From assembly GCA_946699065.1 (NCBI GenBank), contig CAMPDV010000425.1, positions 218,946 to 282,945 on the forward strand: 64,000 nucleotides of DNA, written 5' to 3'. The stretch is from Loxodes magnus (taxonomy: Eukaryota; Ciliophora; Karyorelictea; Loxodida; Loxodidae). A model generated the notes under the pieces. That model had not been told where the DNA came from. It did not search any database and saw nothing but the letters and a program-made list of their open reading frames with translations. This document shows positions 12,111 to 64,000 of the stretch, in pieces (the first letter of the stretch is position 1; every line of letters begins with the position of its first letter). The position numbers were made by a program, and so were the translations under genes.

Positions 12111-13197
12111 ATGGAGAAAAAATAAACGGAGAAAAAAGAAAAGCAATTTACTAAAAGTATTTTTTTAAGAAAACTCTTAAGAGCGAGAAGCCATATTTTA
12201 GGGAAAGTATCTCTACTTCATTTTAAGTATGAAATTCTGCCTAACTTATGCTACTAAAAGTTAATAAACAAGATTAATTATGACCAAAGTAAAGGTATTT
12301 CTTTAATATTTTTTAGACTTAATCCTTACTGGTCACACCTCACCTGTTAACTCGGTAGCCATATCAAGTGACCTGAATTGAATTGTATCAGGTTCAGGAT
12401 ATCCTGAAAATTCGATAAAGATCTGGAATTTCCAAACAGGTGTTCTCCAAAGAATTATAGCAGGAAATACTGATTATGTTTTATCGGTAGTAATCTCCTC
12501 TGACTCTAGCTATATCGTATCAGGATCTGGTGACAAAACCATCAAGATCTGAAACTTATAGACTGGCGCTCTCATAAGAACTTTAACGGGGCATACTTAT
12601 CCTATTACTTCGGTAGTAATCTCCCCAGACTCTAGATATATTATATCGGGATCTGGAGATAAAACCATAAAGATCTGAAATTTCCACAATAGTGCTCTCA
12701 TAAGAACTATAATGGGGCATACTTCCTTCGTTAGATCGGTAGTAATCTCCTATGACTCTAGATATATTATATCGGGATCTTACGATAACACTATAAAGAT
12801 TTGGGATTTCTATACTGGTCAGCTTGTGCGAACTCTTACTGGACATTCAGGTTATGTTTTATCGGTAATAGTGTCTAAGGATAATAGGTATATAATATCG
12901 GGTTCTCGGGACAAGACAATTAAGATATGGGACTTCTTTTCTGGTTAGTGTATTCGTACTCTTTAAGGTCACTCAAGTTATGTATCAAGTATTCAGTTAA
13001 GTGTTGATTCAAGTGTTATATTTTCTGGTTCTGATGACAGAACAATCAAGATCTGGAACTTTGATAAGGGTGAGTGTATATAGACTTTGTAAGGGCATAC
13101 TTTAGATATAAATTCTATAGCATTGAGTGTTGACAATAGATGGTTGGTATCGGGAGAATGGGACAGGACAATAAGAAAGTGGAGAGTTTCGAGTTGA
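12111..13197 (+). CDS. Seven-blade WD40 repeat protein, copy 1 (intact)
   Basis: Exon 1 (12,111-12,288) and exon 2 (12,317-13,197) join across a 28-nt intron into 352 codons with no break, reading TAA/TAG as Gln and internal TGA as Trp; the final TGA is at 13,195. Residues 1-60 are a basic N-terminal region of unknown fold (HILGKVSLLHFKYEILPN). It is followed by seven WD repeats of about 42 residues, each with GH, a D and IKIW, enough for a complete propeller. Three TGA codons sit exactly at Trp positions (DLN-TGA-IVSG, KI-TGA-N). TAR codons fall at Gln positions such as TL-TAA-GH and EC I-TAG-TL. WD propellers act as binding platforms; the partner is unknown. The blades are near-identical in DNA except at a few surface positions. 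The start is chosen because this ATG is shared with copy 2. Confidence 0.85.
12289..12316 (+). other. 28-nt spliceosomal intron
   Basis: GTAAAG at the 5' end and TTTTTTAG at the 3' end. Removing it joins the N-terminal exon to the WD repeats in frame (codon A|AC, Asn). The same intron is in copies 2 and 3 (28 nt) and in copy 4 (29 nt, one extra base), as expected for a non-coding insert. Confidence 0.8.
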
Positions 13198-13704: not shown

Positions 13705-14052
13705 TTATTATTTATTTTTTATTTAATTAATTTCAACTAAAAAAATTTTCGGACCAGAAACTTCTTTCCGATTGCACAACCCAACGCTCTCTTTTTATGG
13801 ATTAATGGGGATATCCTGTTGTGCTCCAGGCAAAGCTGCTGGGAGCTCCATCGCTATGAGCAGCCAGGCTTCAAGCCCCTACCAAGAGCGGATAATCTCT
13901 AAGACAGTGTTCCCTTCAGAAATTGACTCTGACCAGGGACTTTCTCAGCGACAGGAATGGAACTTGTTCCTAGCCATAAAACCAGAAAGTGTTGCCACGA
14001 AGGTCATTCTCAGCTCTCACCATCTTTTCAATTATTATTATTTATTTTTTAT
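13705..14052 (+). mobile_element. SINE-like insertion A with 18-bp target duplication
   Basis: A 312-bp block (13,723-14,034), much richer in G+C than its surroundings, is flanked by identical 18-bp repeats (13,705-13,722 and 14,035-14,052). The related flank of WD40 copy 3 (inverse, about 43,430) has one copy of that target and no insert, so the empty site is seen directly. The block is related to 39,013-39,293 and 34,516-34,727 (shared GGATATCCTGTTG, then GCGGATAAT, GACTCTGACC and CTTTCTCAG blocks). A 3' ATT-rich end and a long target duplication point to LINE-driven retroposition. No clear tRNA A/B boxes were found, so the parental RNA is unknown. The in-frame stretch 13,772-14,098 is incidental. 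Confidence 0.7.
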
Positions 14053-20055: not shown

Positions 20056-20790
20056 TCAAAGTTTTAAATCTTAAATTGAAGTTTATTAATTAAAATATTC
20101 AAGAATATCATTTGCAATCTAGAATGAAATAGCTTCTAAATTTCATTTTTTTCTGAATAAATTAAAATAATCAATCGCAGCAAAAAGGCATGCTTGATAT
20201 TTAAAAAATATTTAAGATTTCAAGTAGTTACAGATTGGATATTGAGCATGGTTTAACAAGTGTTTCTTAAGATAAAATAGAATAGCAAACGTTTTATAGA
20301 AGAATTAAATAATTATAGAATTCCAGTGTTTCTAAATGAAAAAAAAAGAAATCACTAAAATTTAATTAATCAAAGTCATAAATAAAAAAGCGGTAAATAA
20401 ATGAGAAATGTACATGTCCAAAGGGTTGCCAAAATATCTACTTTAAACTTATAAATCTAAGAATTGTCCTTTTGAAAAAACGAAAAAATATAAATCCTTC
20501 TAGAACTACAAATATTCAATGGCTTTTATTAAATTTAGATTGAAATATTCATGCAATAGCTTGAGATCTAAATTTTCGAAGTAGCATAATTGTACACACT
20601 CTTTAAGTTTTTCAATTTCTTGATTATCTTAAATCAAAAATTTTCAGTTGAGTTTATTTTTTATATTCTAAAGAATATAAAAACTGCTGTCTTTTTCTCC
20701 AACTTTGCAATATCTTAGACTTGAATTTGCTGCTTCATTCATTACACTATTCAATAGACATAAATTTAAACCCCAAAATTATAAAAGCAT
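20056..20790 (-). CDS. Gene C: unrecognised 244-residue protein
   Basis: One minus-strand frame runs unbroken from ATG 20,790 to TGA 20,056 with TAR as Gln and TGA as Trp (for example KK-TGA-NLEA). It starts MLLQFWGLNLCLLNS. It contains an acidic helix (DNQEIEKLKECVQLCYFEN), a hydrophobic core with PLDMYISHLFTAFLFMTL, and a C-terminal part with ACLFAAIDYFN and LEAISFQIANDILEYFN. The helical, Ala/Phe-rich C-terminus is faintly cyclin-box-like, but no family is certain. An upstream stretch in another frame (MKKREVKQIELQRIRL) may be a lost 5' exon. It is divergent from gene A, which starts about 250 bases away. The second copy (46,460-47,140) has indels. Confidence 0.55.
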
Positions 20791-22489
20791 TCATACTTTA
20801 GTCTCTTGAAAACATTATCAGTCTAATCCTTTAAAGCTCTATCTGCTTAACTTCCCTTTTCTTCATTTAGATCATACTACTCTAATTGATTTCCTTATAT
20901 CTCTAAGCTAAAATAAATCTAAAATATTAACTATCATAAAAAGCATTAAAGCTAGATTTTATTTTTAAATTAGTTTAATATACTTATTACCAAATCTCTT
21001 GTAAATAAAAGCTTAGAATGAAATATATAGTATATTTAAAGGTTTAATGTATCTTGTTAGTTTATTAAGATACATAAATAAGAAGTATTATACAGAATTA
21101 GGCTATCTTTAATTAAAAATACTGAGTCTAGTAATCTTAATAATTTATTAGCTCTACTAATAAAGCTCCAATATAATAAATAATCAATTAAATACTTTAA
21201 TGGATTTATTAACTCTAAGGCTAGTACTTTAAAGTTGTTTTTTGGTCAGTTTGAACTTGCTTTCTTCTCTATCATTTCAATTTACTGTTCATTGATATGT
21301 AGTTTCTCGCTCATGCACTTAGTTTGTCTTTCTTTAACGGAAATTTTTTAAGAAGATAAACTGAAAGAAACTAAGCCAGCAACTAAACTATCTTAATTGA
21401 TTCATATAAGCAAGCAGCTACTTTGAAGGTAAATCTACTTCCTAACCTCAATATTGTAAATCTTCTAAAAAGAATAATATGAAGTTGTCTATTTTCTTTT
21501 ACGAAAATCTTAAAAATAAATCTATCTAATGTTTTTTGTTTTAAACTCCAGATTCTACTTATTAGGTAAGTAAATGATATACATGTTCCTTAATCCTTAA
21601 TTCTTGTAGCTTATATTGATTATTTTTTTTGCTTTTTTCTTTCCTTTTAAAGAAAGTTGCTTAGTATCTTTTTACTGCTAGATTAAACTCCTCATTGTAG
21701 CTTAGCTCCAAGACGTAACTTGCAATATAAAAAATTGAAAGCAGGCAGGTTAAACATTTTTTACTAGTCAGTTTTACTTGGCAATTATATTCAGCATGTT
21801 AAAAACAATAGGAGACTCATTGAGATTCTTTAATTTTAAATATCTTGCGTTGCTGGGATATTCCTATAATTTTTTCTTTTTTTAATTCCTTTAGCTCAAA
21901 TAATTCTTTCAAGAGTAAGAATTCTTGTAAACCTCTGATGGTTTTATCAGATAATCTTTTAACTATATTTAGCTTCTTCTCAAATCTACCCGTTTATATC
22001 CAACGAGGTCTGGATTAAAAGTAAACGTTTATTTCCTTTCTATCTTTGAAGATGTGACTTTATTTTAAAGATAAAGCTTCATACTGGGAATGCTTTATTT
22101 TTGGTATTTAATTTTTTTCTGTTTCTTTGATTTTTATCTGGATATCAGGCTTATTATTATATATTATTAAATCGCCATAGTTGTTCGAAGGTGAACAACA
22201 AGGGACGGCTTCATCAGAGATTGGGGAAGCTAAGTACCCATAATCGACTTTATGTCTTCCTCTGCTTTGGCTTGACCTCGAGACATAAGATTCTTAGACC
22301 TTCGGCACTGGCTTAATTTGGATTGCATTCTGGAACAAAAAAGAAATAATATTGCGAGTTTCATCAGAGGTGTGGAATTTAAGTACCCATAATTGACACA
22401 TGTCGTCCTCTGCTCTGGCGATGCAATGAGACACAATCCTGCCATGTCCTTGGACCTCCAACAAGTATTAAAGATTATGAGTATTCTTA

Positions 22490-22606
22490 AATTATATCAG
22501 TATTGAACATTTTTATATGTACTGAATAATTATATCAGTATTGAACAAGGTTTATCAGTATCTGATAATTTTATCAGTAAGAAACTTTCTTGTCAGTATG
22601 AAACAT
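22490..22606. repeat. Minisatellite, unit about TTATCAGTATTGAACA
   Basis: Five to six degenerate units of 19-23 bp built on TATCAGTA followed by T/A-rich sequence, inside the composite insertion, just before the GC-rich hairpin. Confidence 0.65.
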
Positions 22607-22621
22607 TTTTTTTTAAAGAGT

Positions 22622-22647
22622 TGCGCACCAACGAGAGTGCTACGCGC
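22622..22647. repeat. GC-rich bulged hairpin motif, second copy
   Basis: TGCG-CAC...GTG-CTACG-CGC shares TGCGCACCA and GTGCTACGCGC with the inverse of 11,065-11,091. It sits at the end of the composite insertion, next to a T9 run. Confidence 0.55.
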
Positions 22648-23529
22648 TCTATAATCAATTTTATTTATTTATATACATCAAAATATAGTAAAAAAACTTA
22701 CAAAGCTTGTTTAATCCGCCATATATTTTTCTTTTTCTGTTTAACAAATAATTCCTACTATAAAAATATCACAATTCTAGCAATGAAGTTAAGTAGAAAT
22801 CAGACAGCAATTTAATGTTCTCCATAACCTTCATCAAAGAGTTCAAAATTTTTAGCAATCCTTAGAGAAATTAACATCACTAATAAGAATCTCTCGTTTG
22901 GAAGTATTTGATGCTTTCAAATATTTCTTAGATGAATTCATAGACACAACTAGGCAAGCAACTAATGACAAATATGAGATTATTCGAAACCTCGCTTTAT
23001 CTTAATTCTAAGCACGTTCTTAGTGTCTATTATTTGCTTCATTCAACATTCTCTACTTTTTACTAAAATTTTGTTTATAGAAATTGATATCTGACTCTCA
23101 CTTTTAGAACACTATTTCTTATTAAGATAGAATTAACTTTTTATCTTGCAAATTTTTCAATTATAGTTCCTTTATTCACCATATCAAGATCTAAAGAAAT
23201 TGCCAATCAACTACTTCAAGTAACTTTTTAAGCTTCACATATTACTAGACTAGACTAAGCTTTTTATTAGATCTTACTATCTTGAATCTACTCAACTGAT
23301 TGCTATTAAAACGTAGTAACCTAATTACATCTCACTCACTATAACTACAAATAATGCTAAACCTTAATATATTTAAAAGTAGTAAAAGCTTCTTATTTTA
23401 GTAGCAACTTATTTTAACCTAAATAGACAAATAATTAGATATTAAAGTAGCAAGGATATAAGATTAACAACCTAACTTAATTAACTAATCACTATATCCT
23501 AATTTTAATAGCCTAGCATTATTATATTA

Positions 23530-23680
23530 CAGTTACTAAGACTACTTGACAGTGAAGGGAGGAGAAGACCACCTAGAGATCAAGTTCCTATTGGTTGGAT
23601 AGGGAAGTAGGAAGCTTTTAAGTAGACGATCCTTCTTTAACACTTTAATTTAAATTTAAATTTAAACAGTTACTAAGACT
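23530..23680 (+). mobile_element. Short SINE-like insertion with 14-bp target duplication
   Basis: CAGTTACTAAGACT is present at 23,530-23,543 and again at 23,667-23,680. Copy 2 of the duplication has it once (about 49,383) and no insert. The roughly 121-bp insert ends in an (AATTTA)n-type tail. A long duplication and an A-rich simple tail are typical of LINE-mobilised retroposons. No A/B box is certain. It interrupts gene A. Confidence 0.7.
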
Positions 23681-23999
23681 ATTAGCAACCCTTTATTTTA
23701 ACAAAGCAGGTTATTACTATTATATATTTAGTGCTTTAAAGACTATAGGAGATACAGTCTAGGATATACATAAAAGTAATAGAAAGGCTATAATATATAT
23801 AGAGTAAGACTTTTATATCCCTATTTAGATACAAATAGTAGCTTTTATTGAAGACATTAAAGAGGTAGACTAGAATATTAATTTCTATATAGATTCATTT
23901 ATAAGATTAAATATTTAAAAGTACAAGAAAGATATGAATGTCTAAAAGTACGCTATTCATAATCTAACTTACTTTATGATTTCATTTATCTTATCTGAT

Positions 24000-26640
24000 A
24001 TTTTGGAAGCATATACAATCATCTTTCACATCAAAAGTTATTTAATCAAACTCCATTCAAATTTATTTTACTTAATGTATTGCTGACAATAGATCTAATA
24101 TTTTCTATCAATGCGTTTATTAACGAATGAATCTCTGTTAATTTCTAGTTTTTCAGCAATCCTATGAACTAATAAAATTCTTAATTTATTACCTTATTTC
24201 TTATCGTAAGTAAATATTATATTTATTCAATTAATGTATAACAATCCAACTATTAAATCTAAACAATCTTTAACTGTTTTAAATCAATATAATTAAATTT
24301 CTATTTATAGGTAGTATTCATCCTTAGGCACCAACATATATTATATTATAATTTCCGATTTGTACCTATTTATTAGCAATTTCTTTTAATCTTATATCTA
24401 TAAATTTTCAAATATATGATGCTAGCTTATTTATTTATCTACTATTAATAATCTACCCCATTTTAATTATTTTTACTCTTTATTATTTTTTATTTATTTT
24501 GAAAGAGTTAATCAATTAATAAAAGCTGGTAAATTATGTAATGAATAAGGTGTTAGTATATTTAAAAATTTAGGCAATTTCTTATAATTTACAGTATTTT
24601 ACTTAATTAGTAGTATCATATTGTTAAATATTTTTATTAGTTTAAATTTTCCTATTCCAGTTGATCCTAATGGAAGAAGTATGTATTAGATATTTTGCTT
24701 TGTAAAATTAAATAAATTAAATTGCTAATTTTTAATTTATTTATAGTTGAATATCTATAATTTCTAATATTTTAAGTTTAACTTTATTCTTTTATTTTTC
24801 ATTTTCTAGTTTTTTTTCTGAATTTATAAGCTAATTTTGTTGGATAATGCTTATTGCTTATTAATTCTATATCAAATATTTAAAACACATCTTCATTGTA
24901 ACTTTCTCTAGAATTATTTCTTTTAAATATACAGTCAGTATCTTCTTAATGTCACAGGTTTATATGAAAATGAATTAATTTTAGCAATTTTAGGTAAAAT
25001 ATTTTTGTTTATACTTTTAGGATCTAAAAAAATAATTTATTAGATTATTATTTTTTTAATTTTTAGTTCCTATAGTAATTGCTTTTTTTCTATACTAAAT
25101 AATAGAATCAATTCATAACAAGTTATATTTTTTAATTCTTTGCTACTACTCTCAAATAAACGATTCGGAGTAAAGTTTGTTTTGAATTATATGCAAAAAA
25201 TATCGTAATTTATCTTCAGAAAATAATGCTTATTATTAATATCTTTCAAATTAATCAATATCTTTATTAGATATTAGATTAGATTAAATTTTATTAAATT
25301 TAAGTTTTCGTTATTTACCTCGACTTAGTTTTAAATTTAATGAGAACATTTGCAAATTATTCTACTTTCCAAACTTCTCAATATTTCTAAAATTTTATAT
25401 TTCTCAAAAAGGATTAATTCAAATATATTTTAATTTACTATTCTACGTTATAAGAGTTTTAATAAATATCTATTTCCAAAATACTTTACAATCCAATATT
25501 TTTATTTTACTTTTTGTCATATTTTTGATTTTATACTTTAGTACATTATTAATATCCAATACAAGCTAAGCATCCTAATTGGTTATTCATAATTGAAGTT
25601 AAAGTTTCATGAACGGCAATATAAATTTATCATTCCATCAGGATTTTATAATTTCCTTTTAATAAAAAAGCCAATTTCTTATATCTTAACATATAATCTT
25701 AATTTGTGGTTTAGTTCTTTTGCTATTTTTATCGACTTTCCTTTTTAATTTGTTGGTTTATTTAGTTTTTATTTAATGTTAGCTGCATTAGTGTAAAACG
25801 ATACTAACTATAATTCTAATTAGTTTGATTAATTTAATTTTTTAACACCAATAATGATGTTTTATTTTAGCTAAAATTAAAGTAATATTCTCTAATGTTG
25901 CTGTTTATACTTATATATAATGAATATGATTAATGATATAAAATGTATTATGTAATATATGCTTCATACTTATAATTCAAATCTAAATTAATCTTTATTA
26001 TAATTTAGTGAAGAGAAAGTTCCCTATAATTCTCTATTAAAGTAACTAGTTTTGCTATTTTACTAACTGCTACTTAATTTATTACATATCCCTTTTACAT
26101 AATCTAGATATTTTCATCTATTTTTAGTTATTTTTAAACTAAATAACTAAAAATAAAATAAATCTCATTTACTAAAGCTAAAATTAATAGAATAGCTTCT
26201 ATAATTTATTCCTTTTAAACTATTATTAAATTACAATACTTTAAAACCTTAAACTTTCTAGATAAGAAAGGAAAATAGGCTATTAAGGATATAATAGATT
26301 ATATATAAGGATAAATTTAATTCGAAAAGATAATTGCCAATCTCATTAGTATCCACAGTGCAAGAAATATTCCATTATAAGTCTTGCCTTACGTTACTAT
26401 ATTAACTTTGAGTAAGTTTCATTAAAGCATAAAGTAAACATAGCTACAGACCTAAAGACAATCATATTAAGAATCTCTCTTAGAGCATAAATTTATTTCC
26501 TCCTAGGTATGAATTTTATCTTTTTAAGGATTTTAGGAGATTATTTAGTATATTAAGATTGAGAGAAGCACATAACGATACTCCTTCAGACTTTTTATTT
26601 TATACATAAGCACTTTTTTAAATTTTCTTTGTAATTGAAT
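24000..26640 (-). pseudogene. Gene B copy 1: large P-loop protein
   Basis: The minus strand is protein-like over about 2.6 kb under the alternative code. The 5' part has KSEGVSLCASLNLN and YLGGNKFMLQERF; further on come NPDGMINLYC and LFESSSKELKNITCYELI. Near the end is IQYILLPLGSTGIGKFKL, a beta strand plus Walker A-like loop (GSTGIGK at 24,647-24,667, with Phe where Ser/Thr is usual), and about 70 residues later WGRLLIVD, a possible Walker B. Between the copies, PKFLN/AQFLN downstream of the loop differs by three silent changes in this frame but by amino-acid changes on the plus strand, which supports the direction. The frame changes more than once, from decay or introns. The exact NTPase family is not identified. 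Confidence 0.45.
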
Positions 26641-30763: not shown

Positions 30764-31835
30764 ATGGAGAAAAAAGAAAAGCAATTTACTAAAAGTATTT
30801 TTTTAAGAAAACTCTTAAGAGCGAGAAACCACATCCTAGGGAAAATATCTCTACTTCATTTTAAGTATGAAATTCTGCCTAACTTATGCTACTAAAAGTT
30901 AATAAATAAGATCAGTTATGACCAAAGTAAAGGTATTTCTTTAATATTTTTTAGACTAAATCCTTACTAGTCACACCTCACCTGTTTACTCGGTATCTAT
31001 ATCAAGTGACCTGAATTGAATTGTATCAGGTTCGTACAGGCCTGAAAATTCGATAAAGATCTGGAATTTCCAGACAGGTACTCTCCTAAGAACTATAACA
31101 GGACATACTGATTATGTTTTATCGGTAGTAATCTCCTATGACTCTAGCTATATTGTATCAGGATCTGAAGACACAACCATAAAGATCTGAAACTTGTAGA
31201 CTGGTTCACTCATAAGAACTTTAACGGGGCATACTGGCTCAGTTTACTCGGTAGTAATCTCTCTAGACTCTAGCTATATTATATCAGGATCTTACGATAA
31301 CACTATAAAGATCTGAAATTTACACAATGGTGCTCTCCAAAGAACTATAATGGAGCATACTTCACATGTTATCTCGGTAGTAATTTCCTATGACTCTAGA
31401 TATATTATATCGGGATCTGGTGACAACACTATAAAGATTTGGGATTTCTAGACTGGTCAGCTTGTGCGAACTCTTACTGGGCATTCAGGTTATGTTTTAT
31501 CGGTGATAGTGTCTAAGGATAACATGTATATCATATCGGGTTCGGATGACAAGACAATTAAGATATGGGACATCTCAACTGGTTATTGTATTCGTACTCT
31601 TTAAGGCCATACAGGTGTTGTACGTAGTATTCAGTTAAGTATTGATTCAAGTGTTATATTTTCTGGTTCTTGGGATGAAATAATCAAGATATGGAACTTT
31701 GATAAGGGTGAGTGTATATAGACTTTGTAAGGGCATACAGGATGAATATGGTCTATAGCATTGAGTGTTGACAATAGATGGTTGGTATCGGGAGCATGGG
31801 ACAATGCGATAAGAAAGTGGAGAGTTTCGAGTTGA
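30764..31835 (+). CDS. Seven-blade WD40 repeat protein, copy 2 (intact)
   Basis: Exon 1 (30,764-30,926) and exon 2 (30,955-31,835) flank a 28-nt intron and give 347 codons without a break under TAR=Gln, TGA=Trp. The N-terminus lacks five residues that copy 1 has (KQTEK), and exon 2 has the same length as in copies 1 and 3 (881 bp). Seven WD repeats follow. Internal TGA codons stand at Trp: DLN-TGA-IVSG, two KI-TGA-N sites, and GG-to-G-TGA-I-W in blade 7. Compared with copy 1, scaffold codons are largely the same, while the residues after GHT and around the Asp of GSxDxT differ strongly (for example GSDDRT against GSWDEI in blade 6). Likely functional; a binding protein of unknown partner. Confidence 0.85.
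30927..30954 (+). other. 28-nt intron of WD40 copy 2
   Basis: GTAAAG...TTTTTTAG, same position and phase as in copy 1. Confidence 0.8.
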
Positions 31836-32149: not shown

Positions 32150-33240
32150 GAAAGACGTTAATTTTGAAGAGAAAAATAAGTTTTTAAGAAAAATTGCTAT
32201 ATTTTTTATCTTTAAAATTTTTCATTTTGTAGTTTTAAAGGAATAGTTTTAAAGATAAACTTTCTGATTTTAAGTAACTTGAATATATCTACTGCATATG
32301 TAGAAAATTGATTTTATTTATTAATCTTAAAATTGTAATTCCTAATGAAGCTATTTTATTAAAGTTGAAAAATTAAAAAAATTTGATTGGTTGTTTATCA
32401 TATAAAAAACATTTGCTAGTAAACTTTATAAATAATTTGAATATATGCAAAATTATAAAAATCTTCACTTTCTTGTAAATTATTTGTTATTTCCATCTAA
32501 AATAAGAATAAAATTAAATTCTAATATTAAATAATACGAATTAGCAAAATGAAAGTGTAAATAATTAAGAAATCAATATAGTTTTCATTATATCAAAAAA
32601 GTATAAAAGAAAAGCTTTAATCTTTTGTATTAATTAAAATAATATACAAAGTGTAAGTTGATAACTATTAGAATTATATCTATAAAAAATGGCAAATATT
32701 TCGTACAATATAAAAAGAAAAATATATAGCATAATGAAAATCAAAGTTTCTACTAAGCCGATAATGCTAATAGCCCACAATTTCCCAAACAACCTTAATA
32801 ATGAGCTATTTTTGTTTTATTCTAAATTATTAGACAACTAAATTATAATTTATAATTTAAGCATTCCTTTAATAAATAATTGCATTAATATAAAATATAG
32901 TATTTTTTAATTTAAGATACTAAATATTTATAAATATTCATAAACATAATTTTCATAAACATAATATTATTTAAAGTGCTTTATTTAAAATAAATTAAAA
33001 AAAAGCAACTAATTTAAATTTAAAAGATCTTATCAAGAAATTAAATTAAAATGTTTTAATATTCATTTTCTAATTAAAAATAGTTATTATTTTTTGTTAA
33101 TTGATCTATTTTATTTATATTTTAAAGATTGTAATTATATGTTTTCATAATGTCTGAAAAATTGCTAGATTATTTAGAGATAAAAAATTAACTCTTAAAA
33201 TCGATCCTTTTATAAGATAAACAGAAATAAGAGGAATTAT
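32150..33240. repeat. Repeat K, inverse copy
   Basis: Reverse complement of about 18,290-19,270 and 40,570-41,620. It begins directly after the WD40 3' flank of copy 2. No gene seen. Confidence 0.7.
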
Positions 33241-33540
33241 AATTAAACAAAATTCTAACAAACAAATTTATAAGACAAAAAAATTAATTTTATAAGAGAT
33301 CAATTGAAGATGTGCAAGAATTTGAGAGCAAAAATATTACAGTTAATATCAAAATATTGTAATCCAAAAGCCATAGATGCAAAAATTGATGCTCAAATTA
33401 AACTACAAATAGATTTATTATTTGGTAAATTAATCTAGAAATAAGAAATATGGCATTGCTTTAACAGATTTATTGAGAAGTTTAATTTATCTTCAAACTT
33501 AATATCTTTTTTTTATTATTAAATAATAGTAAAATTAAAA

Positions 33541-34352
33541 ATGGAGTCTTAAAATCTTGTTCCCGGCTTTTTCTTGAGCAAAGAAGAGAAAAAAGCTCTA
33601 GAGAAAAAGCAGGCATAAAAAAATTAGCAAGAGTCTTCTTCTCCCCACTTACAAAACTAATAAAAACCTAATAACTATAATAAACACCTCCTAAAGTAAT
33701 AAAAAGAAAGGAATTTAATATAATAACATGAAAAGAACTTCCATCAAAGATAATTAAAAAGGAAATAAATGTTTAACAGTTAGTATTTGAAATGTCCAAT
33801 CTCTAGGAAGAGATTAAAGGGTTTAAGTAGGATAATTAAGAACTAAGAAACTTATTATCGCTTGGATAAGATAACTTAGAGATTAGAATTATTAATCAAG
33901 AAAGGGAACTCCAAGCATATTGGAACATTTAAACTGAACATAGATAAGAAACAGCAAGGCTTGGAAATATCGTATAAAAACAAGAATTGGAGTTTATTAA
34001 GCAAAAGAATATTAGCATAAACATAATTAATTAGACAAATTAGATGGAATTAGAATAAAAAGAGGTTATAAATCGAAAACCAATCAGGTAAGTAAGGAAG
34101 AAGTGCTGCTACTGTAAGAGTAAGTGACATTGTTACAAGAATTGCTAAAAATTTTAGAATTTCAAGAAAAAATTTTGGCGTAAAGAATAAGAAAAATACT
34201 AGAGGCTCTATTGCAACTAGCATGGAGATATTTACAGAAGAAATGATGTGAAGTACTTTTGAAATAATAAGAACAAGAAGTCAAAGAAACTGAGAAGACC
34301 TTAGCGAAGATAATTTCATTAGAAAGTCAAGAATGATGAGAAGTGTTGCTGA
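33541..34352 (+). CDS. ORF1/gag-like protein: coiled coil plus CCHC zinc knuckle
   Basis: ATG 33,541 starts MESQNLVPGFFLSKEEKKAL, a Lys/Gln-rich segment with a Ser patch. Near 33,640-33,690 the reading moves by -1 to PPKVIKRKEFN, ITWKELPSKIIKKEINV and a long coiled coil (FEMSNLQEEIKGFKQDNQEL; RIINQERELQAYWNIQ). At 34,104-34,145 lies a textbook CX2CX4HX4C knuckle, with TGA as one of the spaced residues (Trp). A very basic tail follows, and TGA at 34,350 is a plausible stop. Coiled coil plus zinc knuckle is the build of nucleic-acid-binding ORF1/gag proteins of retroelements. No RT follows in this direction. The -1 shift could be programmed or a mutation. The second copy, at 39,464-40,275, appears identical. 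Confidence 0.65.
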
Positions 34353-34515
34353 TAAAACAACTTATTTTAAACAGTGTCCAGATTGGCACTGTTGAACATT
34401 TTAATTTCATTATCATTATTAAATAATAGTAAAATTAAAAGTTTACTATGTAATTTTAAAACTTTTTATTATATGTATAGTTATATTAAAATTATGTACG
34501 AATTATTTAAAAACT

Positions 34516-34727
34516 AGATAATTAAAAAGATTATGGGAGCTGAAGTTGATTCTCATAAAACCTTTGAGCCTTTTGGATAATGTCGAGTTCCTATCCACTG
34601 AGAAGGTCCATGGTTAGAGTCATTCTCAGTAGGAAAACAAAATCTTTCCGATTATCCACTCTTGCTAGCAACTTGAAGACTGTCGGCTCCTTGTTATGGA
34701 ACCCCCTGGCTGAAGCTATTGAATTAA
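34516..34727 (-). mobile_element. SINE-like element, 5'-truncated copy C
   Basis: Inverse copy of the 3' three quarters of 39,013-39,293. The similarity ends at ATTGAATTAA (34,727), which is also the inner edge of the left palindrome arm. The standard-code frame at 34,580-34,783 is incidental. Confidence 0.65.
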
Positions 34728-39012: not shown

Positions 39013-39293
39013 GAGGGACTGGAAACTCCTTTCCAGTTAGACGACTCAGGGCACTCTCTCAATGCATATAGAGAGGATATCCTGTTGCTTAATTCAATAA
39101 GCATCAGTCAGGTGTTCCATAACAAGGAGCAGACAGTCTTCAAGTTGCTAGCAAGAGTGGATAATCGGAAAGATTTTGTTTTCCTGCTGAGAATGACTCT
39201 AACCATGGACCTTCTCAGTGGATAGGAACTCGACATTATCCAAAAGGCTCAAAGGTTTTATGAGAATCAACTTCAGCTCCCATAATCTTTTTA
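39013..39293 (+). mobile_element. SINE-like element, copy B (longest relative of A)
   Basis: About 280 bp, G+C-richer than its surroundings, co-linear with 13,723-14,034: GAAACTCCTTTCC, GGATATCCTGTTG, AGTGGATAAT, GACTCTAACCATGGACC and CTTCTCAGTGG in order. No target duplication can be called. It stands at the inner edge of the right palindrome arm. Confidence 0.6.
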
Positions 39294-39463
39294 ATTATCT
39301 AGTTTTTAAATAATTCGTACATAATTTTAATATAACTATACATATAATAAAAAGTTTTAAAATTACATAGTAAACTTTTAATTTTACTATTATTTAATAA
39401 TGATAATGAAATTAAAATGTTCAACAGTGCCAATCTGGACACTGTTTAAAATAAGTTGTTTTA

Positions 39464-40275
39464 TCAGCAACACTTCTCATCATTCTTGACTTTCTAATGA
39501 AATTATCTTCGCTAAGGTCTTCTCAGTTTCTTTGACTTCTTGTTCTTATTATTTCAAAAGTACTTCACATCATTTCTTCTGTAAATATCTCCATGCTAGT
39601 TGCAATAGAGCCTCTAGTATTTTTCTTATTCTTTACGCCAAAATTTTTTCTTGAAATTCTAAAATTTTTAGCAATTCTTGTAACAATGTCACTTACTCTT
39701 ACAGTAGCAGCACTTCTTCCTTACTTACCTGATTGGTTTTCGATTTATAACCTCTTTTTATTCTAATTCCATCTAATTTGTCTAATTAATTATGTTTATG
39801 CTAATATTCTTTTGCTTAATAAACTCCAATTCTTGTTTTTATACGATATTTCCAAGCCTTGCTGTTTCTTATCTATGTTCAGTTTAAATGTTCCAATATG
39901 CTTGGAGTTCCCTTTCTTGATTAATAATTCTAATCTCTAAGTTATCTTATCCAAGCGATAATAAGTTTCTTAGTTCTTAATTATCCTACTTAAACCCTTT
40001 AATCTCTTCCTAGAGATTGGACATTTCAAATACTAACTGTTAAACATTTATTTCCTTTTTAATTATCTTTGATGGAAGTTCTTTTCATGTTATTATATTA
40101 AATTCCTTTCTTTTTATTACTTTAGGAGGTGTTTATTATAGTTATTAGGTTTTTATTAGTTTTGTAAGTGGGGAGAAGAAGACTCTTGCTAATTTTTTTA
40201 TGCCTGCTTTTTCTCTAGAGCTTTTTTCTCTTCTTTGCTCAAGAAAAAGCCGGGAACAAGATTTTAAGACTCCAT
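39464..40275 (-). CDS. ORF1/gag-like protein, inverse copy
   Basis: Mirror copy of 33,541-34,352, 812 bp in both and, as far as I compared by eye, identical. It includes the -1 shift region, the coiled coil, and the CCHC knuckle with its TGA. Its perfect state contrasts with the decayed copies elsewhere and indicates a recent duplication, gene conversion between the arms, or selection. Confidence 0.65.
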
Positions 40276-40299
40276 TTTTAATTTTACTATTATTTAATA

Positions 40300-42145
40300 A
40301 TAAAAAAAAGATATTAAGTTTGAAGATAAATTAAACTTCTCAATAAATCTGTTAAAGCAATGCCATATTTCTTATTTCTAGATTAATTTACCAAATAATA
40401 AATCTATTTGTAGTTTAATTTGAGCATCAATTTTTGCATCTATGGCTTTTGGATTACAATATTTTGATATTAACTGTAATATTTTTGCTCTCAAATTCTT
40501 GCACATCTTCAATTGATCTCTTATAAAATTAATTTTTTTGTCTTATAAATTTGTTTGTTAGAATTTTGTTTAATTATAATTCCTCTTATTTCTGTTTATC
40601 TTATAAAAGGATTGATTTTAAGAGTTAATTTTTTATCTTTAAATAATCTAGCAATTTTTCAGCTTTTTTCAGACACTATGAAAACATATAATTACAATCT
40701 TTAAAATATAAATAAAATAGATCAATTAACAAAAAATAATAACTATTTTTAATTAGAAAATGAATATTAAAACATTTTAATTTAATTTCTTGATAAGATC
40801 TTTTAAATTTAAATTAGTTGCTTTTTTTTATTTATTTTAAATAAAGCACTTTAAATAATATTATATTTATGAATATTTAGTATTTTAAATTAAAAAATAC
40901 TGTATTTTATATTAATGCAATTATTTATTAAAGGAATGCTTAAATTATAAATTATAATTTAGTTGTCTAATAATTTAGAATAAAACAAAAATAGCTCATT
41001 ATTAAGGTTGTTTGGGAAATTGTGGGCTATTAGCGTTATCGGCTTAGTAGAAACTTTGCTTTTTATTATGCTATATATGTTTCTTTTTATATTGTACGAA
41101 ATATTTCCCATTTTTTATAGATATAATTATAATAGTTATTAACTTACACTTTGTATATTATTTTAATTAATACAAAAGATTAAAGCTTTTCTTTTATACT
41201 TTTTTGATATAATGAAAACTATATTGATTTCTTAATTATTTACACTTTAATTTTGCTAATTCGTATTATTTAAAATTAGAATATAATTTTATTCTAATTT
41301 TAGATGGAAATATAAGATAATTTACAAGAAAGTGAAGATTTTTATAATTTTGCATATATTCAAATTATTTATATAGTTTACTAGCAAATGTTTTTATATG
41401 ATAAATAATCAATCAATTTTTTAAAAAGCTTTCAACTTTAATAAAATAGCTTCATTAGAAATTCAAATTTTAAGATTAATAAATAAAATCGATTTTCTAC
41501 ACGCACAGTAGATATGCTTAAGTTGCTTATAATCAGAAAGTTTATCTTTAAAGCTTTTCTTTTAATATTACAGAATGAGAAAAATTTTAAAGAGAAAAAA
41601 TACTTAATATAGCAATTTTTCTTAAAAACTTGTTTTCCTCTTCTAAATTAACATCTTTTCGCAAACTAAAAACAGATAGTTAGTCGTAGTAAGCTCTTTT
41701 CAAAACTCTTTTACTCATCTTTTCGATTTTTAATGTTTTTCTAATTATTATAATAAAGCAGAATATTTTTTAAACTTGATTAATAAATTTTTGTTTCTAT
41801 ATTTTATATAGTTAGGTTAGATACATTATTTAAATCCTTGTTTAATTCCTTTTTTTAGATTCTTTGTAAATTGGCCTAAAATTTATTATTACAGATGCAT
41901 TATACCTCATTTTTTCTACTTGATTGATCATATTTTTATAAAGAGATTTTTTAGTTCTTTTTAGATTAGTTATTTTTAAAATTCGCAATATCTATTAAAA
42001 AGGTAGTTTTAAGCCCTCTTATAGAAAATTTTTTTAACTAATTTATTTCTTCCTAAAATTGTAATTTATTTTTTTATATTTACTTCTTAAAAGTTATTTA
42101 AAAAACTTTTCAAATCTTTTAAAATTCTATCTCTTTAAGAAAAGG
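40300..42145. repeat. Repeat K, copy 3
   Basis: Same direction as 18,290-20,050, inverse to 32,150-33,240. 40,300-40,570 mirrors 33,240-33,500. No gene. Confidence 0.7.
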
Positions 42146-43560: not shown

Positions 43561-46294
43561 TACTCAACTTGAAATTTTTACTAAATCTAAAAATAAATCC
43601 ATAAAATTTTATAGCATAAATTTAAACTTAAATTTATTATACGTCTTCATTTAACAAAATTATATTTTAAATATTTTTAAACATTACCACTTTAAATCAA
43701 CATACCTCACTAATTTCAATAACCTATATTACTCAAACTTTATTTTAAACCAAGAATATTTAACAATATAACAAATTTTAAATAAATAAAAAAAACTTCA
43801 TAAAACTAAAAACATTACAAACATTAAACATTCATTTAAATACATTACCAATATCTTATATTTTTAATCGTAAAATTTAATTAAGTCAAATAGCAAGTTA
43901 CTCAACTCGAAACTCTCCACTTTCTTATCGTCCTGTCAAATCCTCCTCCCGATACCAACCATCTATTATCAACACTCAATGCTATAGAATTTATTCATCC
44001 TGTATGCCCTTATAAAGTCTAGATACACTCACCTTTATCAAAGTTCCAGATCTTGATTGTTTTATCATTTGAACCAGAAAAGATAACACTTGAATCAACA
44101 CTTAACTGAATACTACGTACAACACATGTATGACCTTAAAGAGTACGAATACACTAACCAGAAGAGAAGTCCCATATCTTAATAGTCCTGTCAACAGAAC
44201 CCGATATTATATACCTATTATCCTTAGACACTTTTATCGATCAAACAGAACCTGAATGCCCAGTAAGAGTTCGCACAAGCTGACCTGTCTAGAAATTCCA
44301 AATCTTTATAGTGCTATCCCAAGATCCCGATATAATATATCTAGAGTCATAGGAGAGTACTACCGATATAACTGTATTAGTATGCTCAGACAAAGTTCTT
44401 TAGAGAGCACCATTGTGGAAATTTCAGATCTTTATAGTATTGTCTTCAGATCCTGATATAATATAGCTAGAGTCATAGGAGATTACTACCGAGTAAACTG
44501 AGCCAGTATGTCCCGTTATAGTTCTTATGAGAGAACCAGTCTATAAGTTTCAGATCTTGATCGTGTTATCAGCAGATCCCGATATAATATATCTAGAGTC
44601 ATAGGAGATTACTACCGAATTAACATAATCAGTATGTTCTGTTATAGTTCTTTGGAGAGTACCTGTCTGGAAATTCCAGATCTTTATCGAATATTCAGGA
44701 GTTCCTGAATCTGATACAATTCAATTCAGGTCACTTGATATGGCGACAGAGAAAACACGTGAAGTGTCAGTAAGGACTTAGTCTAAAAAATATTAAAGAA
44801 ATACCTTTACTTTGGTCATAACTGATCTTATTTATTAACTTTTAGTAGCATAAATTAGGCAGAATTTCATACTTAAAATGAAGTAGAGATATTTTCCCCT
44901 AGTATGTGGCTTCTCGCTCTTAAGATTTTTCTTAAAAAAATACTTTTAGTAAATTGCTTTTCTTTTTTCCTCCGTTTCTTTTTTCTCCATTTTAATTTTT
45001 ATAACTTACTTCAATAAATATTTAATTAAAATAACTCAATAAATTTTACTTACTTAATTTCAATACAATTAAACAATTAAATTATTTATTAAGCATACTT
45101 ATAAGTATCTTCTAAAAATTGATTTTTCTATTTTAGTCTTAAAACAAGACAAAGTATTAAACTAATAGTGTAAAAGCTTTTATAATTTTAATTATTTTAT
45201 ATCTTTTTACTTTTAAATATAAGGATAAATTATTATATCAAAAGTTTTATAATGAAGAATTTATATCCTTATTATAATAACTTTAATGAACATTTATTAA
45301 TTACAACTTATTTGTGTTTTAAATAAAAGACTCTTAATAAGAAACCTTATTTCTTTGTAAATTAATTTAATTGATAAATAAAATATTACAATTCTTTTAA
45401 AAGCTACTGTTATTAATTATTGCTTTTCACTTACATTTAATCAAAAAAAATTATTTCTTTAATCTTTTTACTAATTAAAAAAAATTAAATAAAATAAGTT
45501 TCTTATTAATTAGTTTGAATAGATATATAAAAAACATCAAATTATTTAAAGCAAAGTATTTTTAGTATTTATAAGTTAAAATCTTTTAATTGTCCACTTT
45601 TTTACTACTATTTCATTAAAACTTTTTATTTATAAAGGTCTCTCTTATAATAATAAACTAATATAATTTATTACTTTTAATGTTGATTCTAAGCAAAATA
45701 TATAAATGTAATAAATAGAAGTAGTAGAAAGTAAATATTTAAACTAACTAGAAATGGTTGATCTCTAATTATATCTTACAATTATTAAATAGTAATATTT
45801 AATTTTATTATTAAAATAAGCTTTAATATGTTTAATTATGTCTATTAAATACTTAATATTTTATCCTTTTAGCTTTATTAGTTATTAATTAATTTCTCTT
45901 TAATTTAGATATTAGATTAGTTATAATAAATACATTTAGATAACTTTCTCTTTTTATAGCAAACTAATATTTATTATTTATGTTATTTTTGTAATTATCA
46001 TTTCTAATTAATAATACCTAAATTATTCTAGATTATTTAAAGATAAAAACTTAATTCTATTATTCTATACAAATCTATATTATATTGTTACCACTATTAA
46101 TACTCTCTTTCTTAAAATTAGTTGTTTTATATTTAGAAAATTATCAGCTTTTAAGAAAGAAAGCATATTTTTAATATCTTCTATTACTATTTTCTGAATT
46201 AATAGAAAGGGTAAACTTAACATAATATGTTTCTTTGTAATAAGTATGAGATAATATAAGTATTAGATTAGCTAGTATAAGCTATTTAAAACTA
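43450..46294 (-). repeat. WD40 gene unit, copy 3
   Basis: Inverse orientation. The 5' flank ends early, at 46,294, compared with the other copies. 46,295-46,440 is unique AT-rich sequence before the 7-kb duplication starts. Confidence 0.8.
43902..44990 (-). pseudogene. WD40 repeat protein, copy 3 (exon 1 frame-broken)
   Basis: Exon 2 (43,902-44,782, 881 bp, ending in TGA) is fully open through seven WD repeats under TAR=Gln, TGA=Trp, and the 28-nt intron (44,783-44,810) is intact. Exon 1 (44,811-44,990) carries two single-base insertions relative to copies 1 and 2, one in the GAGGAAAAAAG run and one in AGGGGAAAA. The shared ATG (44,990) is therefore out of frame and no other ATG lies in frame in exon 1. 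Sequencing error in homopolymers is possible. Blade residues at the variable positions differ again (GSWDST in blade 4, GSVDRT in blade 5, GSNDKT in blade 6), which suggests that the propeller was under selection until recently. Confidence 0.7.
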
Positions 46295-46459: not shown

Positions 46460-47140
46460 AATTAAAAGATTTAAGAATATCATTTGCTATCTAGAATGAA
46501 ATAGCTGCTAAACTTTAATTTTTTTCTGAATAAATTAAAATAATCAATTGCAACCAAAAGGCATGTTTGATATTTAAAAAATATTTAAGTTTGCAAGTAG
46601 TTACAAATTGAATATTGAGCATGATTTAACAAGTGCTTCTTAAGATAAAATAAAATAACAAAAGTTTTATAGAAGAATAAATATTATAGAATTCCAGTGC
46701 TTCTAAATAGAAAAAAAAGAAATCACTAAAATTTAATTAATCAAAGTCTTAAATAAAAAAGCTGTGAATAAATGAGAAATGTACATGTCCAAAGGGGTTG
46801 CCAAAATGTCTACTTTGAACTTATAAATCTAAGAATTGTCCTTTTGAAAAAATCAAAAAATGTAAATCCTTCTAGAACTAGAATATTCAATGGCTTTTAT
46901 AAAATTTAGATTGAAATATTCATGCAATAGCTCGAGATCTAAATTTTCGAAGTAGCATAATTTTACACACTCTTTAAGTTTTTCAATTTTTTGATTATCT
47001 TAAATCAAAAATTTTCAGTTACGTTTATTTTTTATTCTCTTAGGAATATAAAAATTGCTGTTTTTTTCTCCAACTTTGCAATATCTTAGATTGAATTTGC
47101 TGCTTCATTCACTACACTATTCAATAGACATAAATTTAAA
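46460..47140 (-). pseudogene. Gene C, copy 2 (indels)
   Basis: Same protein as 20,056-20,790 in most segments (NHAQYPICN region, ENLDLKLLHEYFN region). Single-base differences shift the frame, for example one base fewer in the AACTAGAATATTC stretch near 46,880. Probably non-functional. Confidence 0.5.
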
Positions 47141-47409
47141 CCCCAAAATTACAAAAGCATTCATACTTTAGTCTCTTGAAAACATTATCAGTCTAATCCT
47201 TCAAAGCTCTATATGCTTAACTTCCATTTTCTTAATTTAGATCATACTACTCTATTTTGATTTTCCTTATATCTTTAAGCTAAAATAAACCTAAAATATT
47301 AACTATCATAAAAAAGCATTAAAGCTAGATTTTATTTTTAAATTAGTTTAATATACTTATTACCAAATTTCTTGTAAATAAAAGCTTAGAATGAAATATA
47401 TAGTATATT

Positions 47410-49470: not shown

Positions 49471-49474
49471 GAGA

Positions 49475-51358: not shown

Positions 51359-51479
51359 GCTAGAGTGGTAGACTAGAATATTAATTTATATATAGATTCA
51401 TTTATAAGATTAAATATTTAAAAGTACAAGAAAGATATGAATGTCTAAAAGTACGTTATGTATAATCTAACTTACTTTA

Positions 51480-61794: not shown

Positions 61795-64000
61795 ATGTGC
61801 TATAAAGCAAAACATAGAGAATTTTTGATTAGGAACAGAAAGATATAGAATAATAGTAGATTAATAAAATGTATTAAGGGTAAATAATAATCTGTTAGAT
61901 TAGTTTTTAAATAGCTTATATTAGCTAATCTAATACTTATATTATCTAATACTACAAAGAAACATATTATGTTAAGTTTACTCTTTCTATTAATTCAGAA
62001 AATAATTATAGAAGATATTAAAATATGTTTTCTTACTTAAAAGCTGATAATTTTCTTAGTAACAAACAAGTTATTCTAAGAAAGAGAATATTAATGTGGT
62101 AACAATATAATATAGATTTAGTATAGAATAATAGAATTAAGTTTTTTATCTTTAAATAATCTAGAATAATTTAGGTATTATTAATTAGAAATGATAATTA
62201 CAAAAATAACATAAATAATAAATATTAGTTTGCTATAAAAAGAGAAAGTTATCTAAATGTATTAATTATAACTAATCTAATATCTAAATTAAAGAGAAAT
62301 TAATTAATAACTAATAAAGCTAAAAGGATAAAATATTAAGTATTTAATATACATAATTAAACATATTAAAGCTTATTTTAATAATAAAATTAAATATTAC
62401 TATTTAATAATTGTAAGATAAAATTAGAGATACACCATTTATAGTTAGTTTAAATATTTACTTTCTACTACTTATATTTATTACATTTATATATTTTGCT
62501 TAGAATCAACATTAAAAGTAATAAATTATATTATTTTATTATTTTAAGAAAGATCTTTATAAATAAAAAGTTTTAATTAAATAGTAGTAAGAAAGTGGAT
62601 AAATAAAAGAGTTTATCATATAAATTCTAAAAATAATTTGTTTTAAATAATTTGATGTTTTTTATATATATATTCAAACTAATTAATAAGAAGCTTGATT
62701 TATTTCATTTTTTTCAATTAGTAAAAAGCTTAAAAAAATAATTTTTTTGATTAAATGTAAGAGGATAATAATAATTAATAACAGTAGCTTTTAAAAAAAT
62801 TGTAATATTTTAATTATTATTTAAAAGGGTCTATAAGAAATAAGGTTTTCTTATTAAGAGCCTTTTGATTTAAAGGCACAAATAAATAGTAACTAATAAA
62901 TGCATATTAAAGTTATTATAATAAGGATATAATTCTTCGTTATAAAAACTTTTGATACAATAAATTATCCCTTTTATTTAAAAGTAAAAAGGATATAAAA
63001 TAATTAAAATATTAAAAGTTTATACACTATTAGTTTAATATCTTGTCTCGTCTTAAGACAAAAATAGAAAAATCAATGTTTTAGAAATAAGATACTTATA
63101 AGTATGCTTAATAAATAATTTAATTGCTTAATTGTATTGAAATTAAATCAGTAAAATTTATTGAGTTATTTAAATTAAATAATTATTGAAGTAAGTTATA
63201 AAAATTAAAATGGAGAAAAAAGAAAATGCAATTTACTAAAAGTATTTTTTTAAGAAAACTCTTAAGAGCGAGAAAACACATACTAGGGAAAATATCTCTA
63301 CTTTCATTTTAAGTATGAAATTCTGCCTAACTTATGCTACTAAAAGTTAATAAACAAGATTAGTTATGACCAAAGTAAAGGTATTATCTTTAATATTTTT
63401 TAGACTAAATCCTTACTGGTCACACTTCAGTTGTTAACTCGGTAGCCACATCAAGTGACATGAATTTAATTATATCAGGTTCAGGATATCCTGAAAATTC
63501 GATAAAGATCTGGAATTTCCAGACAGGTGCTCTCCAAAGAACTATAACAGGACATACTTCTAATATTTTATCGGTAGTAATCTCCCCAGACTCTAACTAT
63601 ATAGTATCGGATCTTATGACAAAAACCATAAAGATTTGAAATTTCCACAATGGTGATCTCCAAAGAACTTTGTCGGGACATACTGATTGAGTTTGATCGG
63701 TAGTAATCGCCTATGACTCTAGATATATTATATCAGGATCTCGTGATAAAAACTACAAAGATCTGGGATTTCTAGACTGGTCAGCTTTTTGCGAAATCTT
63801 ACTGGGCATTCAGGTTCTGTTTTCTCGGTTAAAAGTGTCTAAGGATAATAGGTATATAATATCAGGTTCTTATGACAGAACAATTAAGATATGGGACTTC
63901 CTCTTCTGGTTAGTGTATTCGTACTCTTTAAGGTCATAAAGGTGGTGTATATAGTATTCAGTTAAGTGTTGATTCAAGTGTTATCTTTTCTGGTTCTTAT
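61795..64000 (+). repeat. WD40 gene unit, copy 4 (cut by window end)
   Basis: 5' flank closest to copy 2, including its extra roughly 200 bp (62,260-62,470) and the two upstream hairpins. The unit runs off the window. Confidence 0.8.
63210..64000 (+). pseudogene. WD40 repeat protein, copy 4 (decayed, partial)
   Basis: ATG 63,210. An extra T soon after (GAAAATGCAATT) and another in CTCTACTTTCATTT break exon 1. The intron is 29 nt (63,375-63,403). Exon 2 has several one-base gains and losses, for example GTATCGGATCT one base short, GACAAAAACC one long, and GATAAAAACTACAAAG. It nevertheless shows five to six recognisable blades (GHTDWVWSVVIAYDSRYIISG; GSYDRTIKIW). The DLNWIVSG of the other copies is DLN-TTA here. 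Clearly a pseudogene; it continues outside the window. Confidence 0.7.

Follow-up and report, generated by a model that had tools for sequence, protein, structure and literature searches.

The question raised by this locus is why the members of a WD40 gene family in the ciliate Loxodes magnus differ at the same few places in every blade of their propeller, and what such a family might be for. The window, that is, the whole stretch of 64,000 nucleotides that was analysed, is part of contig C425 of a genome assembly of 705,730,643 bases in 7,843 contigs. The data support purifying selection on exon 1 and on most of the propeller, and diversifying selection at four positions per blade. This evolutionary claim is well supported, and recognition, probably of non-self, is the best reading of what the sequences suggest about its meaning.

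Gene A and the extent of the family

Gene A, on the forward strand, starts with an ATG at 12111, contains one short intron and ends with a TGA stop at 13195-13197. Its first exon (12111..12294) encodes a constant N-terminal region of 61 residues, predicted to form one long helix, together with the first base of a split codon, and the ATG is in frame with exon 2 once the intron is spliced. The ratio of nonsynonymous to synonymous change per opportunity in exon 1 was 0.26 in the coding frame (15 synonymous, 17 nonsynonymous), against 0.47 and 0.80 in the other frames. The intron was predicted from sequence as a 22-nt model (GTATTT...TTTTTAG, 12295..12316); an alternative 28-nt model (12289-12316) likewise preserves the frame, and the 22-nt intron had a mean pairwise identity of 0.983 over 46 copies. 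Introns of L. magnus average 19.3 nt, 93% of them being no longer than 25 nt, according to the figures given in PMC11441545. Exon 2 (12317..13197, ending with the TGA) encodes seven WD40 blades, recognised by a Pfam search as seven stretches of PF00400 (E 2.8e-82).

The reading frame of the family can be followed only if TAA and TAG are read as glutamine and internal TGA as tryptophan, TGA being the final stop as well; the published account of the 706 Mbp macronuclear assembly of L. magnus gives the genetic code as NCBI table 27 (PMC11441545). The final codon was TGA in all 38 intact copies. Within their last 21 codons, tryptophan was encoded by TGG 87 times and by TGA 0 times, and farther upstream by TGG 188 times and by TGA 140 times (of 328). 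The absence of UGA as a coding codon near gene ends is a context rule stated for L. magnus genes in the same account (PMC11441545), and the match to this rule supports the gene model. TGA was used for tryptophan at 6 of the 35 named sites defined below.

Three further copies in the window have exon 1, intron and propeller sequence in common with copy A. Copy B (30764..31835, forward strand) has the same intron and an intact seven-blade exon 2 with its codon frame from 30954 (30954-31835), and its exon 1 bears a 15-nt in-frame deletion relative to copy A. Copy C (43902..44990, reverse strand) also has an intact seven-blade exon 2, running from 44783 down to 43902, and the two 1-nt insertions in its exon 1 may be assembly error or decay. 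Copy D (63200..64000, forward strand) is partial with a broken frame and was left out of the statistics; contig C425 ends inside it, at 282,945, which is the last base of the window. Elsewhere in the window, direct duplicated segments were found at 20511-26638 and 46882-54012 (93-98% identity in the listed pieces), along with a perfect inverted repeat of 1,552 nt (33154-34705 with 39111-40662) and, 3' of gene A, a GC-richer island at about 13750-14030. An Rfam scan of the window, this island included, gave no match at gathering scores, a tRNA scan of the window found none, and a Pfam search of ten other window ORFs returned one sub-threshold match and none above the curated cut-off.

Searching the genome with a 28-mer of the intron at no more than 2 mismatches gave 685 + 703 = 1,388 matches (0 for the reversed control), a figure that counts assembled places and overstates distinct genes, 55 distinct places having yielded 46 distinct sequences. 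A propeller was encoded at five of five places picked by genomic position among the intron matches listed, and an exon-1 search in the right frame gave at least 150 full-length matches at 90% identity or more (all of the best 150 scored, from 2,750 first-look candidates). Among the matches listed (100 of 1,388), family copies lay towards one end of four contigs, within the first 406 kb of C13 (1,760 kb long), the last 336 kb of C33 (1,366 kb), the last 115 kb of C84 (889 kb) and the first 175 kb of C127 (736 kb); on C156 and C213 they were spread or central. For the analysis, 68 loci (several fetched twice) and the window copies gave 46 distinct sequences, with copy D and the shortened L087, L091 and L092 excluded. 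The exon-2 frame was intact in 38 of the 46 and interrupted by frameshifting indels, again either assembly error or decay, in eight (L031, L034, L042, L053, L056, L080, L090 and L098); the exon-2 indels among the 38 were multiples of three. L087 reads as six blades in one frame, and L091 and L092 have lost about 130 nt, which indicates that blade loss occurs. The main sample is biased in that its loci were selected by exon-1 similarity to the window, and only five copies (L099-L103) were picked by place.

Variation and selection on the propeller

The original prediction held that the scaffold is almost constant and that a fixed set of positions changes in each blade. These 35 named positions are the residues at GHT+1 (h1), GHT+2 (h2) and GHT+4 (h3) together with x1 and x2 in the seven blades, with the x1/x2 motif modified in blade 1, and the other positions number 258. 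All the residues that had been listed were present in window copies A, B, C and D, both the tetrapeptides SFVR, SHVI, NTVI and DWVW that follow GHT in blade 4 and the x1/x2 pairs given for blades 4, 5 and 6. The excess of variation was borne out across the family, with a mean entropy of 2.07 bits at the 35 positions against 0.31 bits at the 258 (Mann-Whitney p = 6e-22). Over 46 copies, mean pairwise nucleotide identity at the three codon positions was 0.60, 0.47 and 0.61 in the named codons and 0.93, 0.94 and 0.88 in the remainder of exon 2. Moreover, 34 different 35-residue combinations occurred among the 38 intact copies, and in a non-redundant set of 28 genes (more than 8 residue differences) all 28 combinations differed, by 25.2 of the 35 residues on average and by at least 3. 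The five copies picked by place (L099-L103) differed from copy A at 21, 25, 25, 28 and 25 of the 35 named positions and at 31, 32, 34, 26 and 38 of the 258 others, counting aligned residues only.

The AlphaFold model of exon 2 was a closed seven-blade propeller of 28 strands (pLDDT 96.9, pTM 0.92) with a TM score of 0.94 to chain B of PDB 5yzv, and the seven repeats, four-stranded blades and closure of a WD40 beta-propeller were all found. In WD40 proteins, the residues termed R1-2, R1 and D-1 are described as protruding on the top face, with contacts in 29 complexes of 17 WD proteins (PMC3419727). When the sequence rule from that description was applied, h2 corresponded to R1-2, h3 to R1 and x1 to D-1, and x2 was the residue after the tetrad Asp. 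By this assignment, three of the four selected positions would coincide with published top-face hotspots of WD40 proteins. From published WD40 rules, and by analogy with the modelling of Podospora proteins considered below, the four positions per blade (about 28 residues in all) are predicted to be top-face residues. The labels of top and bottom loops rest on this published rule and on the usual WD40 topology, from which we take the bottom-face loops to occupy offsets +11 to +15 and +31 to +35.

Many of the changes involved several nucleotides, and single-nucleotide differences were therefore counted separately from the codon model. Omega was obtained from single-nucleotide codon differences between nearest neighbours only (214 pairs), weighted by the mutation spectrum of the flanks. 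It was 6.96 at h2 (1 synonymous, 34 nonsynonymous), 15.0 at h3 (1 and 58), 10.35 at x1 (1 and 45) and 3.17 at x2 (4 and 52), compared with 0.29 in the core (286 and 249); at h1 it was 0.64, which indicates no positive selection there. A binomial p of 2e-6 for all five positions jointly is only indicative, since the neighbour pairs are not independent. In the 28 non-redundant genes, the four positions showed 7 synonymous and 194 nonsynonymous differences, giving an omega of 6.64 with a 2.5-97.5% range of 3.07-17.66 over 200 half-samples, and the values were 0.56 for the bottom loops and 0.31 for the core. Furthermore, a measure free of pairs, based on distinct codons one step apart, gave 2.84 for the four positions, 0.72 for h1, 0.71 for the bottom loops and 0.44 for the core. 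The predicted diversifying selection was thus found at h2, h3, x1 and x2 (omega 3.2-15.0) and not at the residue directly after GHT. A dN/dS near or below 1, or a lack of excess variation, had been named as evidence against the prediction; neither was seen at these four positions, and only such a dN/dS was seen at the fifth.

A fixed-effects codon model was also applied, in which a site was significant if beta exceeded alpha and the LRT exceeded 3.84, and in which separate blade trees guarded against recombination between blades. With one tree, 11 of the 35 named sites were significant (24 were not), against 9 of the 258 others; with blade trees, the counts were 8 of 35 (27 were not) and 3 of 258. 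Pooled beta/alpha on one tree was 10 at h2 (LRT 31.5), 5 at x1 (19.9), 3 at h3 (12.8) and 2 at x2 (5.5), and on blade trees 6 at h2 (18.7), 3 at x1 (10.4), 2 at h3 (6.6) and 2 at x2 (2.4, not significant). For h1, it was 1.0 and 0.67, respectively. The synonymous rate of the named sites was raised in the model (alpha 2, beta 3), as is expected with many multi-nucleotide changes, and the single-change counts avoid this effect.

In copy A, the top loops (h2, V or I, h3) lie on the forward strand at 12343..12351 in blade 1, where codons 10 and 12 had beta above alpha on one tree; at 12475..12483 in blade 2 (codons 54 and 56, one tree); at 12601..12609 in blade 3, where the entropy was 2.56 bits at h2 and 1.96 bits at h3 and the codon model found no individual significance; at 12727..12735 in blade 4, the F-V-R of SFVR (codon 138, LRT 5.0 on one tree; entropy 2.24 and 2.79 bits); at 12853..12861 in blade 5 (codon 182, LRT 5.7 with either tree); at 12979..12987 in blade 6 (codon 222, LRT 8.0 on one tree and 6.3 on the blade tree); and at 13105..13113 in blade 7 (codon 264, LRT 5.8 on one tree). 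The second variable loop comprises x1 and the modified x2 in blade 1 (12397..12402, forward strand as for the loops that follow; codon 28, LRT 10.9 on one tree) and x1-D-x2 in the other blades. It was supported at individual sites in blade 4 (Y-D-N, 12781..12789; codon 158, LRT 5.3 on one tree and 3.9 on the blade tree; x1 2.65 bits) and in blade 7 (W-D-R, 13159..13167; codons 282 and 284, LRT 6.0 and 4.2 on blade trees). Without individual significance in the codon model, the entropy at x1 and x2 was 2.38 and 1.84 bits in blade 2 (12529..12537), 2.39 and 1.69 bits in blade 3 (12655..12663), 2.04 and 2.02 bits in blade 5 (R-D-K, 12907..12915) and 2.25 and 1.83 bits in blade 6 (D-D-R, 13033..13041).

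Several sites outside the named set were also significant. At +5, the V/I position between h2 and h3, beta exceeded alpha on one tree (LRT 10.6 when pooled over blades 2-6; single codons 55 and 97). The same was true of +35, which lies in the c-d turn of the bottom face (LRT 5.6, pooled). Codon 127, at +35, and codon 43, in blade 1, which is two residues longer, were among the strongest single sites, and codon 220, adjoining h1 of blade 6, was significant in the codon model as well. The signals at +5, +35 and codon 220 indicate that selection is concentrated at the four positions and not confined to them.

A probable recognition repertoire and competing explanations

The mean column identity of exon 1 was 97% over 16 members, and its AlphaFold model was a helix from residue 2 to residue 60 (pLDDT 89.6, pTM 0.49). 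A Pfam search of exon 1 returned only zf-CCHC_4 (E 0.011; 15.8 bits, the cut-off being 27) and no HET, NACHT, F-box or other adaptor domain, and the best match in a PDB sequence search had an E of 0.29; the helix matches no described domain, so that these searches point to no particular output function. A phage search with the propeller matched 2 of 50,697 records at 30-34% identity, that is, no close phage relative in that collection.

Taken as a whole, these features are probably explained by a repertoire of selected surfaces for the recognition of variable partners, most plausibly non-self. The family would then be a very large dispersed set (about 1,400 assembled places) in which a constant basic helix of 61 residues is joined to a seven-bladed WD40 propeller, and each copy would display a different binding surface on one common scaffold. 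The genome would thus hold a germline-encoded repertoire, probably intracellular. The constant helix may be the common output or assembly part and the top face the specificity part, since a helix kept constant beside a propeller that varies points to output or assembly in common and to a specificity particular to each copy. The likeliest driver would be non-self proteins of pathogens, symbionts, mobile elements or other individuals. The constant-plus-variable layout would also suit paralogous substrate or adaptor receptors, in which the helix docks on a shared machine, for example a ubiquitin ligase, and the propellers pick endogenous clients; WD40 top faces are described as commonly binding partner peptides and proteins (PMC3419727). 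However, an arms race accounts better than stable clients do for replacement at more than the neutral rate across about 1,400 copies, and the Pfam search of exon 1 showed neither an F-box nor any other adaptor domain, which makes such receptors an unlikely account of the family.

The copies exchange sequence, as indicated by a PHI-type test (0.566 against a null of 0.647, sd 0.009, with 0 of 500 permutations as low) that gave the same outcome once the named sites were removed (0.321, with a null of 0.368 and again no permutation of 500 as low). Blade shuffling, which the original prediction had proposed as a check, was not seen, each of 266 blades out of 266 being nearest to a blade of the same position. 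Between-blade DNA identity was 0.76-0.78 for blades 2-4 and 0.34-0.64 for other pairs, values taken at the DNA level, whereas the published criterion for highly repetitive WD40 proteins, at least 0.7, refers to internal repeat identity of the protein by its own method. Such strong recombination, together with 273 multi-nucleotide codon replacements between nearest neighbours at the named codons against 59 elsewhere, and with the large WD40 arrays elsewhere in the genome that vary at the same positions, would be in keeping with local hypermutation or templated replacement without selection, for example by short conversion tracts from a donor pool. Synonymous single-nucleotide change was nevertheless not raised at the named codons (20 per 2,016 opportunities against 346 per 16,814 elsewhere), which disfavours hypermutation as the whole story. 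Identical loop segments in different blades (2-4) were not clearly enriched within one gene: the h loop gave 2 of 84 within a gene and 12 of 2,268 between genes, and the x loop 1 of 84 and 38 of 2,268. Mutation or templating by itself is therefore quite improbable, and we read the diversity as arising when copies duplicate, equivalent blades exchange sequence and selection acts on changes of one or several nucleotides, and not through repeat shuffling of the fungal kind.

Relaxed constraint, under which the top loops tolerate any residue and the duplicates drift, would agree with the placement of all five named positions in or beside loops and with the omega of 0.64 at h1. It predicts an omega of up to 1, however, against the values of 3-15 at the four positions. 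The bottom-face loops, in addition, had an omega of 0.52 (+11 to +15) and 0.64 (+31 to +35), or 0.58 together (214 pairs), even if +35, taken singly, showed beta above alpha. The Asp at +23, which separates x1 from x2, was conserved, with an entropy of 0.15 bits, an alpha of 3 and a beta of 0.05. Relaxed constraint is disfavoured by the bottom-loop control and by omega above 1 at the four positions, and we consider it very unlikely.

Outside the genes, mean pairwise identity of the 5' flanks was 0.82-0.95 within 800 nt of the gene and fell to 0.74 in the outermost 100-nt bin; for the 3' flanks it was 0.82-0.92 within 500 nt and 0.68 farther out (flanks of 42 and 41 copies). Some window copies were alike to about 1.3 kb upstream, and copies were nested in larger segmental duplications. 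Although the occurrence of homologous stretches of some 2.4 kb or more on either strand of many contigs, inside larger duplications, might recall a satellite-like or transposon-borne repeat with an incidental propeller, this is hardly credible in view of the core omega of 0.29, the intact frame of 38 of the 46 distinct copies with indels in multiples of three, and the lack of coding UGA in the last 21 codons, as in genes of this species.

Comparison with fungal and other repeat families

The original prediction likened the variable positions to those of Podospora HET-D/E. In those proteins, codons 7, 9, 25 and 27 are reported as selected, flanking codons 8 and 26 (PMC1805685), and the four positions have been modelled on top loops (PMC2873952). 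The spacing is equal, with +4, +6, +22 and +24 in the Loxodes blades, and in the accounts of the HNWD family of Podospora anserina, which includes HET-D and HET-E (PMC1805685, PMC2873952, PMC12222747), the same four positions are likewise selected in pairs around one residue, with exchange among members. The correspondence is partial, as the Asp at +23, the equivalent of codon 26, is held in Loxodes, but codon 8, under purifying selection in Podospora, has as its equivalent +5, where beta is above alpha. The fungal proteins, as described in these sources, combine HET and NACHT domains with arrays whose near-identical repeats change in number and order, whereas the Loxodes family has a single seven-blade propeller after a constant helix, with blades fixed in position (266 of 266). 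Diversity is moreover spread over about 1,400 dispersed places in Loxodes, compared with 10 genes in Podospora by the published count.

With regard to the domains themselves, a Pfam search of exon 2 gave no NACHT among the families listed (25 of 64), and none of 31 NACHT-like places found genome-wide at an E of 0.001 or better was on contig C425. On contigs C33 and C254, a NACHT match and family copies occur at a great distance from each other. This NACHT model also matches 11 of 14 control genomes, and its weak matches may be other NTPases. Membership among the HNWD receptors is disfavoured, since these searches showed no N-terminal HET or other known effector domain and no NACHT, and repeat shuffling was not seen. 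The fungal comparison therefore stands for the way in which a surface diversifies and not for membership, no HET or NACHT domain having been found at the locus: the sequences support a likeness to HET-D/E in the variable surface only, and do not support a place among the HNWD receptors. A fuller picture can be drawn by analogy, in which roughly a thousand stand-alone WD40 receptors form an innate immune or allorecognition system that came by convergence to the same four positions per blade as HET-D/E, with the dispersed genes of constant helix and variable propeller as one pool and the tandem arrays as a second, related one; we put it forward tentatively, as a doubtful extension.

The recognition of pathogens or of other individuals by single-celled eukaryotes is a poorly known field. 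Should the propellers prove to be receptors, fungi and ciliates would have recruited the same four positions of the WD40 blade for diversification, and the WD40 top face as a ready-made variable surface would, if true, be a testable general rule. For binding studies, the family also supplies numerous natural versions of a single scaffold, in which the bottom face and core are an internal control for measuring selection. The prediction had suggested that such a family might be undescribed for a ciliate with this code. Among the papers listed from the open-licence part of PubMed Central, titles and opening lines of abstracts described no WD40 repertoire in a ciliate, no open-licence PubMed Central literature was found that joined karyorelicts and WD40, and the word WD40 was absent from the available text of the L. 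magnus paper.

Other repeat families show partial resemblance. The propeller of copy A scored 310.6 bits with the Pfam model of WDR5 (PF25175), against a curated cut-off of 250, a likeness by score only. WDR5 binds conserved motifs on its propeller, whereas in the Loxodes family the top face is the part that varies. The species-specific LRR families of Tetrahymena are also described as a lineage-specific expansion of a repeat scaffold with rapid evolution in a ciliate, although they consist of LRR rather than WD40 units in tandem 90-bp exons (PMC6564038). Highly repetitive WD40 proteins of bacteria, fungi and protists likewise combine a conserved scaffold with diverse hotspot residues, and as characterised in PMC5587647 they are repetitive inside one protein (internal identity of at least 0.7), whereas the Loxodes family is repetitive across genes.

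That highly repetitive class is resembled more closely by tandem 126-nt WD40 arrays in this genome, which were found on C1503, C119, C9 and C4046 (loci L001-L030) and also on C272, C620, C1832 and C6957. A 32-mer of the array unit, at no more than 2 mismatches, gave 523 + 3,536 = 4,059 matches genome-wide, with 0 for the control. The unit tail was kept in frame in 402 of 420 units from L001-L030, which comprised 122 distinct units at the DNA level and 106 at the protein level. The four positions, 4 of 42, accounted for 49% of the amino-acid differences between distinct units, and the h1 position for 11%. Among codons one step apart, the four positions had 6 synonymous and 38 nonsynonymous differences, and the other 38 positions had 19 and 34. 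An open frame of 2,899 aa was observed on C6957.
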